NCBI RefSeq assembly: GCF_027257955.1 | Contig: NZ_JANZNQ010000002.1 | Coordinates: forward strand, 62,001-126,000 | Direction: 5' to 3' | Length of the DNA stretch: 64,000 bases | Source of the DNA: Zhongshania aquatica | GTDB taxonomy: Bacteria > Pseudomonadota > Gammaproteobacteria > Pseudomonadales > Spongiibacteraceae | Shown here: positions 5,766-57,878 of the stretch, piece by piece | Layout: every line of letters begins with the position of its first letter | How positions within the stretch are numbered: the first letter of the stretch is position 1 | The notes under the pieces: model-generated | What the model was told of the DNA's origin: nothing | Database searches by the model: none | What the model saw: only the letters and a program-made list of their open reading frames with translations | Position numbers and translations under genes: made by a program

Positions 5766-6323
5766 ATGACAAGCAAAAAAATAGATCCTGTCGCACTGAT
5801 ACGTAAAGAAATAGAATCCCTTGAATCCAAGGTAGAAAAATTACGTGATCGCTTAATGGCAGATGCACATAAAGCAATAGAAAAAGCAAAAGCACAAGCA
5901 GAACGCGCACGAGATAAACTAAAAGCCGAACAAGCAAAACTCGGTGAATTACAGAAAAAAGCGAAAGCAAACATGGACAGCCGCGTGCAAAAGCAAATGG
6001 ATCGCGCCCATTCTGCTGTCGATGCCGCCAAAGAATTAGAGCTAGATGCCAAGGCCGTCATGATTATGGCTAAAAATCAACTTGCTGAACTCAAAGGCGA
6101 CTACCAAAAAGCAAAAGCACTCGCCAAAGCAGCACAAGAGGCTGCGAAGAGCTTCGACGCCAAAGCGAAGGCCACACCAAAAGCTGCTGCGAAAAAAGCA
6201 GTGGCCAAAAAAGCGCCCGCGAAGAAAGCGGCCGTAAAAAAAGCGCCAGCAAAAGCGGCGCCTGCTAAAAAAACACCCGTGAAGAAAGCCGCCGCAAAAG
6301 CAGCAGCGCCTAAAAGCAGTTAA
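5766..6323 (+). CDS. AlgP-like / histone H1-like Lys-Ala-rich protein
   Basis: The 185-residue protein has two parts. Residues 1-130 are a charged helical, coiled-coil type region (ESLESKVEKLRDRLM, then many K-A-Q-A-E repeats). Residues about 132-185 are a degenerate KKAPAKKAA / KKAPVKKAAAK tail resembling eukaryotic H1 and the Pseudomonas AlgP C-terminus, a type of tail known to bind DNA or polyanions. The ATG at 5766 has GAGG 9 bases upstream. Because the tail is built from repeated AAA-GCG-type codons it is prone to length change by slippage. Role as a nucleoid-associated or regulatory protein is inferred from composition; PhaF-like granule binding is an alternative. Confidence 0.75.
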   Translation: MTSKKIDPVALIRKEIESLESKVEKLRDRLMADAHKAIEKAKAQAERARDKLKAEQAKLGELQKKAKANMDSRVQKQMDRAHSAVDAAKELELDAKAVMIMAKNQLAELKGDYQKAKALAKAAQEAAKSFDAKAKATPKAAAKKAVAKKAPAKKAAVKKAPAKAAPAKKTPVKKAAAKAAAPKSS

Positions 6324-6347
6324 CTCTTAAAGTAACTCTGCGTTTGG

Positions 6348-6376
6348 GTTGTAAAGCAGCGCGTCTGCTTTACAAC
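6348..6376. terminator. Long hairpin between convergent algP-like and luxR-type genes
   Basis: Perfect 12-bp inverted repeat GTTGTAAAGCAG (6348-6359) and CTGCTTTACAAC (6365-6376) with a 5-base loop, placed 24 bases after one stop and 6 bases before the other. Neither side has a true T-tract (TCTTCCCT on the plus strand), so it may work as a weak bidirectional terminator or protect 3' ends. Confidence 0.55.
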
Positions 6377-6382
6377 TCTTCC

Positions 6383-7513
6383 CTAGCCCGCCAAGGTTAC
6401 AACGCTATTCAAAATCAATTGAATAAGCTGCGTCTGCCGCGTGACTCCGGTTTTAGAAAACACCGCACTTAAATGGGATTTAGCGGTATTGCGAGACACC
6501 CCCAAACTTACCGCAGCTTCATCTAAACTCAAGCCATTGACCAATCTAATCGCCAGCCTCGCCTCAGCAGGTGTTAAACCAAACAACGCAATCAACACAT
6601 CGCTAGGTGCCTGTCGTGGTGCCATTGGATCAGTAATAAATATCGCTACAGCCGGTGAATGCTCGCCGCTGCGATCACTTAATGGCAGTGGTCGCAGCAG
6701 TAAATTTATGCCCTGAAACTGCGCAATATCTGCGAGTCTAAATGCCCGAACACAACCAGCCATTTGTTGATGATGAGCAGTAACAACCTCAGAAAAAAGT
6801 GCGCTAAACGCCTTCTGCTCGCGAACATCCGCAAGTTGAAAACAACGTTTGCGCATGAATACACCCCGAGACGACTCTATCAAACGTGCCGCCACCGGAT
6901 TACTACTTAATACATGCCCATGAGTGTCTAGAGTTACAACGCCAACCGCTAATTGACCAAAGGTATCTGCGTACAAACCACGCTCTAACTCAGATTCTTG
7001 CAGGCGAGAATGTATTTCTATGGCTTGCCGCAAATGCGGCAGCAACTGCTTGCACAGGGATTTTTCCGCTTCGCCGAAATCACTAACACCAGCCGGTCTC
7101 GTTACGCGAAGCCGAGCAAGTAATCCATCTTTACCCCACAAATCGGCCCCTAAAATATGCATCACGTTACTTGGCTGCAAATAGCTGCGAAAGTACTCAG
7201 ATTGCTCAAACTCGTCCTTAGACAAGAATTCCGCAATTGTCACAACGTCGCCGTCAGGTAAATTTACGAAGGGGTCTAAAGCAAAATAGGTGTCGTTATA
7301 GGCGTGATAAATATCGGTGGAATAAAAGACCGAATTTAACACCACACCTTTTTCATGAATATTTGGAGGCCGTAACAATAAGGTCGCAAAATTACCATCA
7401 AGTAGCTCGCTTAGCGCACCCAAAAATTGCTGCCATGGAGGTGACTCTAGCATTCCGTGATATATGGAATGGATCACCGCATCCATCTGCGGTGAAACAT
7501 GTAAATCTGCCAT
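6383..7513 (-). CDS. LuxR-type (GerE HTH) transcriptional regulator
   Basis: 376-residue DNA-binding regulator. The C-terminal 65 residues form a LuxR/GerE helix-turn-helix (LTPAEARLAIRLVNGLSLDEAAVSLGVS then NTAKSHLSAVFSKTGVTRQ). The N-terminal 300 residues show no receiver-domain Asp pattern and no recognisable autoinducer domain; the middle (about 185-290) could be PAS-like (TLDTHGHVLSSNPVAARLIE). The frame is open to a GTG at 7576, but ATG at 7513 (MADLHVSPQMDAVIHSIY) is preferred since AGG precedes it by 6 bases and the upstream GTG has no ribosome site. It lies 85 bases downstream of a dehydrogenase gene on the same strand, a plausible target. Ligand unknown. Confidence 0.85.
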   Translation of the reverse strand: MADLHVSPQMDAVIHSIYHGMLESPPWQQFLGALSELLDGNFATLLLRPPNIHEKGVVLNSVFYSTDIYHAYNDTYFALDPFVNLPDGDVVTIAEFLSKDEFEQSEYFRSYLQPSNVMHILGADLWGKDGLLARLRVTRPAGVSDFGEAEKSLCKQLLPHLRQAIEIHSRLQESELERGLYADTFGQLAVGVVTLDTHGHVLSSNPVAARLIESSRGVFMRKRCFQLADVREQKAFSALFSEVVTAHHQQMAGCVRAFRLADIAQFQGINLLLRPLPLSDRSGEHSPAVAIFITDPMAPRQAPSDVLIALFGLTPAEARLAIRLVNGLSLDEAAVSLGVSRNTAKSHLSAVFSKTGVTRQTQLIQLILNSVVTLAG

Positions 7514-7598
7514 GAGTAACCTGGGCCACTGAGAAAAACGTGACCCGATTCTAACGCCTGACTGCACCAAATTCACTATTCAATAGTGCGTTCGGTCG

Positions 7599-8387
7599 TT
7601 AATGGGGCAAATACTCGCCACCGTTTACGTCCAGCGCCGCTCCCGTTACTGCACAGGCGTAATCGGAGCCTAGAAATATTGCTGCCTTAGCACAATCTCC
7701 GTCATCTGGAATGTGGCCAAGAGGGATATTTTTCGACACCGCTGCAACCTGCTGCTCAACAGTCGGGCCACCAGCGTCCGCGTTCATTTGCAAATAGCCT
7801 TCTACTGCCGGCCCCCACATCCAGCCCATATACGCGGAGTTTACACGAATATTGTATGCGCCAAGCTCCAAGGCTAAGTGCGAAGTCGCGCTAGCCAGAG
7901 CCGCTTTAGATGCTCCATAGCCACCTTGGGTATGCAATGGCTTGCGCGTCACCATCGTGTTGATCATGACAATTGCGCCACCACCCTGCTTTTTCATTTG
8001 AGGGATCGTTTCCAAGGTCAGCGCCATGGTGCCGAATAGATTTACGTCCATGGCCGCGCGCCAGCTATCCAAATTTGCGGTTTCTATCGGGCCGAACTCG
8101 CCAGGATTATATGCACTGTTAAATAAGACATCGATACGACCAAAACGAGCGACGGATTGTTCGACCAGTGCAGCACATTGAGCACGATCGCTAATATCAG
8201 TTGCTACTTTCAACACTTGGGTACCTAAACCTAAAGCTAAAATTGCCGCTTCAGCATCATCTAGCTTACTGACGGTACGAGCGCACATTGCAACTGACGC
8301 GCCCTGCTTTGCCGCCTCGACCGCCAACTCCTGGCCCAGCCCTGGCCCAATACCTGAAACAATTACAACCTTACCATCTAAAAGCAT
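7599..8387 (-). CDS. Short-chain dehydrogenase/reductase (SDR)
   Basis: Classical SDR of 262 residues, NAD(P)-dependent alcohol/ketone oxidoreductase. Visible landmarks are the Rossmann glycine motif SGIGPGLG (residues 11-18), the NSA variant of the usual NNAG motif, and the active-site YGASK. The residue 13 before the catalytic Tyr is Thr (INTM) where most classical SDRs have Ser. The C-terminal TGAALDVNGGEYLP is the usual end of the family. AGGA lies 8 bases before the ATG, and a TATAAT-like -10 is seen at 8409-8414 on the minus strand. Substrate cannot be told from sequence. It precedes the LuxR-type regulator on the same strand. Confidence 0.88.
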   Translation of the reverse strand: MLLDGKVVIVSGIGPGLGQELAVEAAKQGASVAMCARTVSKLDDAEAAILALGLGTQVLKVATDISDRAQCAALVEQSVARFGRIDVLFNSAYNPGEFGPIETANLDSWRAAMDVNLFGTMALTLETIPQMKKQGGGAIVMINTMVTRKPLHTQGGYGASKAALASATSHLALELGAYNIRVNSAYMGWMWGPAVEGYLQMNADAGGPTVEQQVAAVSKNIPLGHIPDDGDCAKAAIFLGSDYACAVTGAALDVNGGEYLPH

Positions 8388-8572
8388 AATCAGATCCTGT
8401 TATTAAATATTATAGGAAGAGTAGAGATTAGCTTAGCTGAGCTGCGTTGTTTCGGCACCACCCATACGGACGGGGTGTGTGGTCTGTTCTATTTACGAGA
8501 GAAGCAATCATGGGACAAGACCTTGCAATGTCGGATGGTTATAAATTTAAGACGACCTAGACGTGACGAAAT

Positions 8573-8974
8573 CTAACTTCCCGCATTCAATGATTTACGC
8601 ATATTCGACGCAATGGTGGCGGCAATACGTTTTGCCTGCTCGGCTTTTGGACCAGAAAAGCCAGTATTCACCGCGTTAACAAAATGCGCTAGCCATCGAT
8701 CAAAATCGCTGATCGAGAGGTTCTGTTTATTATTTAGCTGGCGATGGATGTTCATGGTATGGCGGTGGTAGTTATTTTGGCCTAACAGTAGTTTTTCCCA
8801 ATAGGACTGAATTCGGGGGAAGTGTTCTCGAATATCGATACCGGCAACATCGGTAAAAATAGGGGCTAATTGTTCGTCATTTAACAAATAGCCGTAAAAG
8901 GTTTCTACGAAAGCCGCTATATGTTCCGGGCTATCTAGATCTGGCTTTTGCGTAACCGGTAAATTAAAAGACAT
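8573..8974 (-). CDS. Group III truncated haemoglobin
   Basis: Haem protein of 133 residues, the normal length for truncated globins. It has the group III pattern: FVETFYGYLLNDEQLAPIF near residue 23, then HFPRIQSYWEKLL, YHRHTMNIHRQL with the candidate proximal His, and FDRWLAHFVNAV followed by GFSGPKAEQAKRIAATIASNM. Members of group III are thought to handle nitric oxide or oxygen in microaerobic proteobacteria, but the exact role is unsettled. It stands alone on the minus strand between der and the SDR gene, with no obvious partner. Confidence 0.88.
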   Translation of the reverse strand: MSFNLPVTQKPDLDSPEHIAAFVETFYGYLLNDEQLAPIFTDVAGIDIREHFPRIQSYWEKLLLGQNNYHRHTMNIHRQLNNKQNLSISDFDRWLAHFVNAVNTGFSGPKAEQAKRIAATIASNMRKSLNAGS

Positions 8975-54101: not shown

Positions 54102-54125
54102 TTCGTCCCGCAACTGTGGGACGAA
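54102..54125 (+). terminator. Terminator-like hairpin after dapD
   Basis: Perfect 8-bp stem TTCGTCCC (54102-54109) and GGGACGAA (54118-54125) with an 8-base loop, 17 bases past the dapD stop. It lacks a run of T (TCTGATTTTC follows), so it is only a candidate. Confidence 0.5.
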
Positions 54126-54248: not shown

Positions 54249-54434
54249 ATGGAATTTCACGTTACAGGGGTATTAGGATTTCTTATTTTTATCGCCGATA
54301 TTTGGGCGATTCTTAATATTGTGCAAAGTCGCGAAACATCGACAACCAAATTACTTTGGATTGTATTAATACTCTTCCTTCCCTTCCTAGGCCTGCTAAT
54401 TTGGTGGTTTGCCGGTCCGCGCGAACGAACTTAG
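54249..54434 (+). CDS. PLD nuclease N-terminal-like (PLDc_N) small membrane protein
   Basis: 61-residue membrane protein with two hydrophobic helices (VLGFLIFIADIWAILNIV and LLWIVLILFLPFLGLLIWWFAG) and the family pattern of a short loop with K-L-L-W between them and a C-terminal GPR. This matches the PLDc_N domain, found at the N-terminus of cardiolipin synthases and as free-standing proteins of unknown role. The ATG has AGGAG 7 bases upstream. It stands alone; 54435-54711 downstream holds nothing I recognise. Confidence 0.85.
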   Translation: MEFHVTGVLGFLIFIADIWAILNIVQSRETSTTKLLWIVLILFLPFLGLLIWWFAGPRERT

Positions 54435-54711: not shown

Positions 54712-55785
54712 ATGGATGCAAATAGTAAAGACAAATCAGATTGGGCGATTAAACTCATCGCGATCCTCGCTGTACTTTATACATTACAAGTGGCAAGAGA
54801 TGTCATCCTACCCATTACACTCGCACTTATTTTTACACTTCTGCTCGCCCCTGCCGTAAGTCGACTACAATCCATCGGCCTACCACGCAGCTTAGCCGCC
54901 ATCATCATTATGACGATTGGTCTCGGTATGATTGGCGGTGTTCTCTACGCATTGGCATCCCCAGCCAATGAGTGGTTTCAACGCGTACCCGAGGCAGTTT
55001 CCGTATTACGCGATCAGCTAGGTAACGTGAATAGCGACAACACGAATGTCGACGCCGCCAGTCGCAGTATCGACTCACTAGCAAAAGAGTTCAGCACAAG
55101 CTCAAAAGACCCTCAATTAACGCAAGTGGTTATTGCAGACGCTGGCTGGCGCTCAGAGTTAGGCGAAATCGCGAAGAATTTCGGCGTTTATGGCACGCTA
55201 AGTATTATTTTTTTGTTCTTCCTGCTAACGTCAGGAGACGCATTAATGAGGCGTTTCATTCACAGCCTCCCAACCCAGAAAGACAAAGCTGTGGTGACAC
55301 GCATTGCGCAACTCGCGCAAACGCAAATGTCACGCTACTTAATGACCATCACCGCTGTCAATGTTGCGGTTGGCGGATTAACAGCATGTGGACTGTGGCT
55401 CGCTGGTTTCCCAGATCCCGCCCTGTGGGGAGCGGTTGCCACCTTATTGCGCTATATCCCCTATCTCGGCGTCAGCATGACAATCATACTATTTACTATT
55501 GTGAGCGCTGTCAGTTATAACAACCCTATGGCCATTATTGCTGCACCGCTTTCTTACGGCCTGTTCACCGCGTTCACCGGCCAATTTATCGACCCCTTTG
55601 TCCACGGCCTGCGATTTAGTCTAAATCCCATTGTCGTGTTTTTATGGATATTTTTCTGGGGTTGGTTGTGGGGGGCACCCGGCGTTTTACTCGCTGTTCC
55701 CCTACTCACGCTTTTCCAGGTAATCTGCCAACATACCGAACGCTTATTGCCCGTCGCTCATATTATTGGAGATGCCAATGAATAA
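54712..55785 (+). CDS. AI-2E family (PerM/YdiK-like) membrane transporter
   Basis: 357-residue membrane protein with about eight helices: two at the N-terminus, a hydrophilic segment (residues about 85-150), then LSIIFLFFLLTSGDALMRRF and the C-terminal bundle with GAVATLLRYIPYLG and FLWIFFWGWLWGAPGVLLAVPLLT. These are hallmarks of the AI-2E exporter-like superfamily; substrates range from autoinducer-2 to ions and most are unknown. It overlaps the amidoligase gene by 8 bases, so it is probably the membrane partner of that operon. Confidence 0.9.
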   Translation: MDANSKDKSDWAIKLIAILAVLYTLQVARDVILPITLALIFTLLLAPAVSRLQSIGLPRSLAAIIIMTIGLGMIGGVLYALASPANEWFQRVPEAVSVLRDQLGNVNSDNTNVDAASRSIDSLAKEFSTSSKDPQLTQVVIADAGWRSELGEIAKNFGVYGTLSIIFLFFLLTSGDALMRRFIHSLPTQKDKAVVTRIAQLAQTQMSRYLMTITAVNVAVGGLTACGLWLAGFPDPALWGAVATLLRYIPYLGVSMTIILFTIVSAVSYNNPMAIIAAPLSYGLFTAFTGQFIDPFVHGLRFSLNPIVVFLWIFFWGWLWGAPGVLLAVPLLTLFQVICQHTERLLPVAHIIGDANE

Positions 55786-56794
55786 CTCGCTGGATACCTA
55801 TCGCAAATCATTGTGGCCGCTGCCACAGCATACCAAAACGTCCGACGGCAAGATGAGACGGCTCGGTGTAGAAATTGAATTTACCGGCATGGAAATTAGC
55901 GACATTGTCGACACGATTATCTCGCTCTACGGCGGCAAGGCCGAGACGGTATCGGATTACGAAATCAATGTTGTCGATACCTCCTTAGGAAAATTTGGTG
56001 TTGAATTAGATTTTTCATACATCAAACGTATCAGCCGCGAACGTCACGAGTCTGCAGACAATAACGACTTAGAAGAACTCGCCGAAGCCATTGTTGGCGC
56101 CATAGCTAAACAGCTCGTGCCATTTGAAGTCGTCGCCCCCCCCATTGCCATGGACGAGTTATGGCAACTCGAAACACTATTCCAAAAACTGCGAGATTCA
56201 GATGCGCAGGGCACTCATGCCTCAGCAAAAAACGCCTTTGGTCTACAACTAAATCCAGAAATGCCAGACTGCAGTGCCGAGACCATTCGCGATTATCTGC
56301 GCGCATTCTTGTGTCTATACGACTGGTTAAAAATGCGCTGCGACGTAGATTTCAGTCGCCGCCTCACCTCTTATGTAGACCCCTTTGGTAAAGACTATGT
56401 AAGGCTGTTGCTAAAGGCCGACTACGCGCCCGACATCAACCAGCTAATCGATGATTATCTGGAATATAATCCCACCCGCAATCGCGCGCTGGATATGTTG
56501 CCGCTTTTCTCGCACATCGATGACGAAAGACTGCGTCGCTCAGTGAAGGACGACAGGGTAAAAGCGCGCCCAACACTGCACTATCGACTTCCAAATAGCC
56601 TGATCGACGACCCGCAATGGGGGCTAATCCACCCCTACCGCGACTGGTTGCAGGTAGATAATTTAGCCATGGATAAACACCGCTTAGATATGGTGTGTCG
56701 CGGCTACCGAAAATACCTCGACAATGCGACAGCCAATCTTTTCACCAATTGGGCAAACAGCGTAAGCAGATGGTTAATTCCGGAGCTACTGTGA
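55778..56794 (+). CDS. Amidoligase (glutamine-synthetase-fold, Amidoligase_2 type)
   Basis: Predicted ATP-dependent COOH-NH2 ligase. ATG 55778 has GGAG 6 bases upstream and gives 338 residues. Motifs fit the GS-like amidoligase family: VEIEF at residues 31-35 and VELDF at 75-79 (metal/ATP acids), His147 followed by FGLQLNPE at 154-161, SYVDPFGKDYVRLL near 207, and the C-terminal Arg motif ARPTLHYRLPNSLIDD. No signal peptide, so the reaction is cytosolic. The downstream gene encodes a C26/class-I amidotransferase-like hydrolase, the known partner type in comparative genomics. Substrates are unknown to me. Confidence 0.88.
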   Translation: MNNSLDTYRKSLWPLPQHTKTSDGKMRRLGVEIEFTGMEISDIVDTIISLYGGKAETVSDYEINVVDTSLGKFGVELDFSYIKRISRERHESADNNDLEELAEAIVGAIAKQLVPFEVVAPPIAMDELWQLETLFQKLRDSDAQGTHASAKNAFGLQLNPEMPDCSAETIRDYLRAFLCLYDWLKMRCDVDFSRRLTSYVDPFGKDYVRLLLKADYAPDINQLIDDYLEYNPTRNRALDMLPLFSHIDDERLRRSVKDDRVKARPTLHYRLPNSLIDDPQWGLIHPYRDWLQVDNLAMDKHRLDMVCRGYRKYLDNATANLFTNWANSVSRWLIPELL

Positions 56795-57456
56795 ACAAAC
56801 CACTTATTGGCGTGACTGGAGACGACACCAAGCTCCCCCTTGCTTGGTGGTTTATTCGCTGGGCATTATGGCGCTGCGGTGCCGTCGCCTATCGACTAAC
56901 ACCGACCCGCTGCGCAATCCCTGACGGACTCGATGGCATCATCATTAGTGGCGGTGACGACATCGATCAACGTCTTTATATGCCTGATGCACCAGACACC
57001 GCCCCCATCAATCGCGAGCGGGATCGGTTTGAAATGATGGCACTGGAACACAGCCTCGCCAAAGATCTACCGATTCTTGGTATATGCCGAGGCGCGCAAT
57101 TATTTAATATTGTTCTTGGTGGCACCCTCTATACCGATCTGCGGGAGCATCGTCATATAACATCTAACAAACGTATGCTTATTCCCCGTAAAACATTAAA
57201 CGTAGATACCAAAAGTTCACTATTTAAAATCCTCGGCAGTGAACACTGCCATATTAATAGCCTTCATCACCAAGCCATTCATAAATTAGGAGAGGGCTTG
57301 CAGATTTCCGGCCGCGACGCCGACAATATCATTCAAGCGGTCGAGGCGCCGGATCATCGCTGCAGACTCGGCGTGCAATGGCACCCAGAATATCTTCCTT
57401 TCCAAGGTCGCCAACTGCATATTTTTAAACACCTAGTGGCGAGTGCAGTACAATGA
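56791..57456 (+). CDS. Class-I amidotransferase-like hydrolase (peptidase C26, PuuD-like)
   Basis: Predicted gamma-glutamyl (or similar) amide hydrolase. The GTG at 56791 overlaps the amidoligase TGA as GTGA and has GGAG 7 bases upstream, giving 221 residues starting MNKPLIGVTGDDTK. The catalytic triad is visible: Cys99 in LGICRGAQ, His198 and Glu200 in VQWHPEY. The fold segments DGIIISGGDDID and VLGGTLYTDL match gamma-glutamyl-GABA hydrolases. Coupled to the amidoligase, it likely cleaves or edits the bond that enzyme makes. Confidence 0.92.
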   Translation: MNKPLIGVTGDDTKLPLAWWFIRWALWRCGAVAYRLTPTRCAIPDGLDGIIISGGDDIDQRLYMPDAPDTAPINRERDRFEMMALEHSLAKDLPILGICRGAQLFNIVLGGTLYTDLREHRHITSNKRMLIPRKTLNVDTKSSLFKILGSEHCHINSLHHQAIHKLGEGLQISGRDADNIIQAVEAPDHRCRLGVQWHPEYLPFQGRQLHIFKHLVASAVQ

Positions 57457-57878
57457 TCAGCCAGTATCTGCTGATGTTTGCCGTCGCCTTCGGCGCCGCG
57501 ACCTTACTGCCCTTCTATTCTGAAATTTTACTCGTCGCACAACTTCGCGACGGCTTAAGCCCCGCTTGGCTATGGCTAGCCGCCACCGCAGGCAACACCC
57601 TCGGCGCGGGCATCAACTGGTGGATGGGCATGAAGCTAAGCCAATACTCAGATCGCCGCTGGTTTCCCGCTAGAAAAGTCGATCTAATCCGCGCTCAGAA
57701 ATGGTTTACGCGCTACGGCAAGTGGACGCTGCTAATGTCATGGATGCCCATCGGCGGCGACGCACTCACCGTTGTTGGCGGTATTATGCGCATCCCCGCC
57801 ACACCATTTTTTATCCTTGTCGCCATCGGTAAAGGTGCTCGCTATGCCGCCGTCATCGCCGGTATCAATGCGCTGTAA
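57453..57878 (+). CDS. YqaA/DedA-like membrane protein
   Basis: 141-residue membrane protein with about four helices. The segments LLPFYSEILLV, NTLGAGINWWMG and WFTRYGKWTLLMSWMPIGGDALTVVGGIMR match YqaA-type short members of the DedA/SNARE-associated (VTT) superfamily, which act in lipid flipping or membrane homeostasis. Its ATG overlaps the hydrolase TGA as ATGA, so it is the fourth coupled gene of this operon. Gene yqaA is usually free-standing, which makes the linkage notable. Confidence 0.85.
   Translation: MISQYLLMFAVAFGAATLLPFYSEILLVAQLRDGLSPAWLWLAATAGNTLGAGINWWMGMKLSQYSDRRWFPARKVDLIRAQKWFTRYGKWTLLMSWMPIGGDALTVVGGIMRIPATPFFILVAIGKGARYAAVIAGINAL

Follow-up and report, generated by a model that had tools for sequence, protein, structure and literature searches.

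The stretch of Zhongshania aquatica DNA analysed here, 64,000 nucleotides long and called the window below, carries a run of four overlapping genes at positions 54712-57878 of its forward strand. Two of them, encoding a ligase of the Amidoligase_2 family (PF12224) and a thiol hydrolase of the Peptidase_C26 family, form the core of the run and belong to a known but uncharacterised enzyme pair. The last gene encodes a VTT/DedA membrane protein of YqaA type, which is the only third partner of the pair that recurs beyond close relatives. The first, for an AI-2E family membrane protein, is a lineage-specific neighbour. The four genes together are specific to a lineage and are not one conserved four-gene system. 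We propose, and give this proposal about an even chance of being correct, that the two enzymes make and break a gamma-glutamyl-type amide while the YqaA-type protein handles the compound at the membrane.

The ligase and its C26 neighbour

The ligase gene (55778-56794, forward strand, ATG start, 338 amino acids) and the hydrolase gene (56791-57456, same strand, GTG start, 221 amino acids) overlap by 4 bases. The AI-2E gene runs 8 bases into the ligase gene, and the hydrolase gene 4 bases into the VTT gene. An earlier description made from the letters alone, hereafter the sequence-only reading, had claimed these four open reading frames (ORFs), their overlaps and their families. The ORF coordinates and Pfam searches bear it out, all four products exceeding the curated Pfam cut-offs. 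The overlaps suggest that the genes are translated as one unit.

The survey took in 30 named loci and three overlapping genome samples, 369 from the class, 398 from the phylum and 21 from the family. PF12224 was present in 20 of the class, 24 of the phylum and 19 of the family genomes, and a profile search found it in none of 14 control genomes, E. coli included. A ligase of this kind was carried by 86 loci, which form 54 groups at 80% ligase identity; L052, L071 and L133 gave no match to the ligase profile, and weak or split PF12224 matches (L091-L095) were set aside. Because some genomes enter twice, partly those of the window's family, the 54 groups are the fairer count. The C26 gene adjoins the ligase on the same strand in 81/86 loci and 49/54 groups, and the pair spans three phyla, Pseudomonadota, Campylobacterota and Thermodesulfobacteriota (partly in metagenome assemblies). 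The five loci without it are L011 and L031, which lie at contig ends and of which L011 shows a partial C26, and L070, L131 and L132. A C26-type gene also stands beside the ligase on plasmids of Rhodobacteraceae SC52, Dinoroseobacter shibae and Qingshengfaniella.

Ligases lacking a C26 neighbour were seen in another class, on alphaproteobacterial plasmids (L208, L210, L212, L216) and in genome G247, which carries the pair as well.

The window's ligase scores 210.3 bits against PF12224 (cut-off 22; E 5.5e-62), covering profile positions 1-244 of 245, and its closest named relatives, up to 95% identical, are those of Zhongshania. The motifs VEIEF (E32, E34), VELDF (D78) and FGLQLNPE (N159, E161), already pointed out in the sequence-only reading, are present and conserved. 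In an alignment of 52 ligases (the window protein and 51 of 53 group rows, L016 and L066 being left out), the most divergent of which share 25% identity with that of the window, 16 columns are invariant, including E32, E34, D78, E117, N159, R234, R264, H268 and R270; E161 is kept in at least 90% of the sequences. By analogy with glutamine synthetase (GS), the residues E32, E34, D78, E117, R234, R264, H268 and R270 would be catalytic. The AlphaFold model of the ligase (predicted local distance difference test score, pLDDT, 92) resembles glutamine synthetases, with a best Z-score of 12.8 and a root-mean-square deviation of 3.5 over 219 residues, and the 50 matches listed are all GS or GS-like. 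Sequence and 52-sequence profile searches of solved structures returned no relative at E 0.001. The GS fold named in the sequence-only reading is supported by the model, and the protein is probably a carboxylate-amine ligase of the GS superfamily.

The hydrolase scores 158.9 bits against Peptidase_C26 (PF07722; cut-off 20.5; E 2.1e-46). Its triad of C99, H198 and E200, the Cys-His-Glu triad noticed earlier, is invariant in 47 aligned hydrolases (the window protein and all 46 group rows), and a cysteine precedes RGxQ in 81/81 C26 ORFs, which were taken at scores above 120 bits. The catalytic residues of both enzymes are intact in the aligned homologues. In a fold comparison the hydrolase model (pLDDT 94) matched Lin1909, an uncharacterised protein, at a Z-score of 30.0, PuuD at 29.8 and SpuA at 28.0-28.9, one of the matched SpuA entries bearing a glutamyl thioester; CTP synthase glutaminase domains came next, at 22.5. 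The ICRG and RD motifs of the hydrolase also occur in the Lin1909 and SpuA stretches.

These data bear on a different role for the C26 protein, that of a glutaminase subunit which would pass ammonia from glutamine to the ligase, converting a carboxylate into a primary amide. Glutamine-dependent amidotransferases of this kind exist, for example MurT/GatD, and the nearly universal adjacency of ligase and C26 gene would suit two subunits of one enzyme. The protein also exceeds the cut-off of the GATase profile PF00117 (58.1 bits, cut-off 22.8), a match that cannot separate a hydrolase from an amidotransferase subunit, and both kinds of enzyme use a Cys-His-Glu triad. Phage-type ligases, moreover, have a glutamine amidotransferase close by: GATase_6 in locus L052, an enzyme of unstated class in phage Laroye, and Gn_AT_II in phage UFV-P2 (PMC3890496). 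Set against this, the matches to Lin1909, PuuD and SpuA exceed those to glutaminase domains, and the shared motifs lie in Lin1909 and SpuA. This ranking favours a PuuD/SpuA-like gamma-glutamyl hydrolase over an ammonia-supplying subunit without proving it, and we consider the glutaminase role possible but rather doubtful.

Membrane proteins linked to the pair

The VTT gene (57453-57878, forward strand, ATG start) encodes 141 amino acids and scores 46 bits against VTT_dom (cut-off 33.9; E 8.9e-12). Its product is 42% identical to E. coli YqaA, and 22 columns are common to all 16 aligned rows. The hallmark of the YqaA subfamily (COG1238) is an acid in the first re-entrant helix and the absence of phosphate-binding arginines from the second; E24 is invariant in our alignment, as are K127 and R130, all three positions being read from the alignment. 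Against the NCBIfam profile of UptA (NF052605) the protein reaches 26 bits, far below the cut-off of 300. A published account describes this subfamily as little known, argues that it is unlikely to flip undecaprenyl phosphate and suggests that it perhaps moves uncharged or positively charged lipids (PMC10127716). A role as metal exporter was considered and is not relied on: the YqaA of Rhodanobacter has 202 amino acids and different neighbours (PMC8679861).

When neighbouring ORFs were clustered, only the ligase, the C26 gene and the VTT gene (18 groups) recurred outside the window's family in a fixed place and on the same strand. A cluster of ABC ATPases (12 groups) without a consistent position or strand was set aside, as were wrong-frame ORFs lying over the pair or the VTT gene on either strand. 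We then mapped the linkage on a quick ligase tree of 53 rows, built without bootstrap and without the fragments L028 and L031. A YqaA-type VTT gene is linked in 18 rows, 10 outside the window's family and 8 inside, and in two more the pair is linked to a VTT gene of another type. Explaining the YqaA-type pattern takes 7 changes, each a gain or a loss, of which the starred branches demand at least 4, and the linked gene is found in Limnobacter (Burkholderiaceae) besides the window's own branch. In the class sample, the pair occurs in 18 of the 20 genomes with PF12224, and a VTT gene of either type is nearby in 10 of these 18: directly after the C26 gene in 7 (counting G247, with its frame of 75 amino acids), two genes further in 2 (G256, G352), and of the other type in 1 (G140). 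In G140 (L068) this other-type gene lies upstream and overlaps the ligase start by 4 bases; in L126 (G664, from another class of the phylum) it lies downstream and overlaps the C26 gene by 4 bases. Both were assigned to VTT_dom by Pfam. By a rough estimate that assumes one such gene per 4 Mb, chance would place a VTT gene on the same strand and no more than 8 kb away in about 1/1000 of cases.

Could only the enzymes cooperate, the AI-2E and VTT genes being bystanders retained by the layout of the operon? The 33 of 53 ligases without a linked VTT gene of either type would fit this, as would the confinement of AI-2E linkage to one family and genome G214. In G247 (L066, L160), moreover, the VTT gene beside the pair has an open frame of just 75 amino acids, reflecting either a broken gene or a sequencing error, and another contig carries an intact gene of this type. 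The number of changes on the tree, however, together with the Limnobacter case, argues for repeated association, and two genomes have a second VTT type beside the pair. Genomes G072 and G146, whose pair lacks a linked VTT gene, carry the same VTT type elsewhere; this check covered 20 VTT regions hand-picked among the matches listed, of which 15 gave a match. For the VTT gene we hold to the reading of a recurrent partner, and we regard the bystander explanation as a whole as unlikely.

The AI-2E gene (54712-55785, forward strand, 357 amino acids) is assigned to its family by 147 bits against PF01594 (AI-2E_transport; cut-off 34.3; E 1e-42), a label that does not imply export of AI-2. Within the window's family, 18 of the 19 ligase-bearing genomes have it linked (the exception being L137); among the loci examined outside this family, it is linked only in L060 of genome G214, where it lies 3' of the VTT gene and not 5' of the ligase. 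At E 1e-5, the genome from which the window comes holds 3 AI-2E genes. A profile built from linked AI-2E proteins matched in 21 of 38 ligase genomes at E 1e-30; beyond the window's family, the one match that is linked to a ligase is that of G214, whose score is inflated because its own protein is within the search profile. The L060 protein scores up to 187 bits to linked AI-2E proteins, compared with 57 and 48.5 bits to the window's two paralogues; being closer to the linked type, it stands as one second linkage.

AI-2E as a component of the system is thus rejected beyond the window's family, other ligase genomes carrying their nearest relatives elsewhere, and we regard the gene as a lineage-specific addition. 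The sequence-only reading had pictured a make/break cycle served by two membrane proteins and had proposed a co-occurrence survey of all four families. The cycle fits the pair and its intact active sites, and the survey recovered the pair almost throughout and the VTT gene in a minority of rows; the AI-2E protein drops out. For this gene, co-conservation ends at close relatives and a single further genome, an outcome which that reading had itself named as speaking against its proposal.

An MgtC-family gene stands between the PLDc_N gene and the AI-2E gene in L008, L009, L134, L135, L138, L139, L141 and L142. The same search found no MgtC gene at this place in the window, where there is a gap of 277 bases.

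Flanking genes

Upstream of the operon, Pfam searches identified a PLDc_N-type gene, a dapD-type gene and an ArsC-family gene, and downstream yaeQ. The PLDc_N-type gene (54249-54434, forward strand) encodes a small membrane protein of 61 amino acids (E 7.4e-13); within the window's family it precedes the ligase at most loci, and it is probably not part of the core. A terminator-like hairpin with a 10-pair stem and a T-rich tail (54102-54125, forward strand) lies 3' of the dapD-type gene and may possibly mark the boundary to the upstream genes. This is weak evidence, since the window holds 6 such sites and shuffled sequences are expected to hold 5.8; promoter- and terminator-like sites in the window were in general no commoner than in shuffled sequence. 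Membership of a dap operon was rejected, given this hairpin and the limitation of the dapD-type synteny to the window's family.

The dapD-type gene also enters into another explanation, according to which the pair edits peptidoglycan or its recycled peptides at the amide bonds of D-Glu or diaminopimelate, with cell-wall lipid carriers as the targets of the membrane proteins. A phage module of amidoligase, gamma-glutamyl cyclotransferase (GGCT), ATP-grasp and other ligase genes is termed a putative peptidoglycan modification module (PMC11945000), and one DedA subfamily flips undecaprenyl phosphate (PMC10127716). The latter source argues that the YqaA subfamily is no such flippase, the window's protein scores far below the UptA cut-off, and the dapD-type gene is a neighbour in one family only, behind the hairpin. 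We find a role in the cell wall distinctly unlikely.

Gamma-glutamyl chemistry and known systems

Outside the pair, members of the same ligase family are found near an unrelated enzyme that removes gamma-glutamyl groups. Locus L052 of a gammaproteobacterial genome (G261) has Amidoligase_2, GATase_6 and the gamma-glutamyl cyclotransferase GGACT (PF06094, E 2.9e-16) close together at 5865-8690; its ligase is phage-like, matching 97 phage records, which suggests that the locus originates from a prophage. In Bacillus phage 031MP004 an amidoligase and a gamma-glutamyl cyclotransferase lie about 1.1 kb apart, and in phage UFV-P2 an amidoligase and AIG2/GGCT about 3.1 kb apart, with Gn_AT_II also near (PMC3890496).

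We infer the chemistry, the direction of the cycle and the transport step as follows. The GS-fold ligase would spend ATP on activating a carboxylate as its acyl phosphate, the gamma-carboxyl of glutamate being the probable group; attack by an amine would then give a gamma-glutamyl-type amide. The C26 hydrolase would strip the glutamyl group through a thioester on its cysteine and restore the amine. Transport across the inner membrane would most likely fall to the YqaA-type protein, its cargo being the amine compound or the conjugate, whether lipid or small molecule.

A broader version of this proposal would make YqaA-type (COG1238) DedA proteins the membrane partners of gamma-glutamyl ligases. 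The ligase and the C26 hydrolase would cap and uncap an amino-lipid or an amine solute, the DedA protein would move the capped or the uncapped form and so set its sidedness, and yqaA-gshA of E. coli would represent another instance. In E. coli K-12 (L172, 2884-4941), yqaA ends 72 bases 5' of gshA, the glutamate-cysteine ligase gene, on the same strand, a point that also speaks for the narrower proposal above. A general pairing was rejected: in a class sample of 143 genomes, with few genomes per family and its own thresholds, 16 carry the two families, which are neighbours in 1 of them (G028). The open-access literature yielded no paper treating yqaA together with gshA. We offer this extension as a long shot.

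Several observations weigh against the make/break cycle with its membrane step. The ligases of L070, L131 and L132 form a separate clade without C26, and a lone ligase is found on plasmids of Rhodovastum, Microvirga, Azospirillum and Indioceanicola, whose gene tables may be incomplete. At 68 bits against the NCBIfam PuuD equivalog PRK11366 (cut-off 266), the hydrolase is not a PuuD orthologue. Plain Foldseek with the ligase model gave nothing at E 0.001, its best match being YbdK at E 0.03. The tree rows lacking a linked VTT gene are the majority, nearly half of those having the YqaA type (8 of 18) belong to the window's own family, and YqaA-type genes elsewhere have mixed neighbours (30 loci). 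A cyclotransferase is annotated in one of three phage stretches, the other two having room for one, and our literature search found no assay of this ligase subfamily and no substrate.

If the preferred reading of a gamma-glutamyl cycle is correct, the pair represents an uncharacterised make/break cycle in three phyla. Its DedA-type partner would tie it to the membrane and offer a handle on the cargo of the YqaA subfamily, and the model can be tested in culturable strains. Searches of the open-access literature, most subscription papers being outside their scope, gave no paper joining an amidoligase with DedA or AI-2E, or with gamma-glutamyl-gamma-aminobutyrate hydrolase.

The closest precedent is a predicted one. 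Iyer et al. (2009, Mol Biosyst 5:1636) reportedly predicted a pair of Amidoligase_2 and a C26-type thiol peptidase in proteobacteria, with the same ligase family and the same kind of neighbour as here, which agrees with what the sequence-only reading gave as known; that work is not known to include a DedA/VTT or AI-2E partner. The Pfam text for PF12224 reportedly names two partners, a thiol peptidase in proteobacteria and Aig2 in fungi. Among characterised systems, PuuA/PuuD of E. coli and PauA/SpuA of Pseudomonas belong to gamma-glutamyl-polyamine pathways and, like the window, combine a ligase of the GS superfamily with a C26 hydrolase, the hydrolase folds matching at Z-scores of 28-30. The window differs from them in that its ligase is an Amidoligase_2 protein to which no solved structure is related in sequence at E 0.001, its operon has neither oxidase nor dehydrogenase, and its hydrolase falls below the PuuD cut-off. 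The phage-type modules share the ligase family and its proximity to a gamma-glutamyl-removing enzyme, but a cyclotransferase replaces C26 and no VTT protein is annotated in the three stretches. E. coli yqaA-gshA shares the VTT type (42% identity) beside a gamma-glutamyl ligase gene, but there the ligase is GshA. Compared with these systems, the recurrent DedA-type partner of the ligase-C26 pair appears to be new and undescribed.

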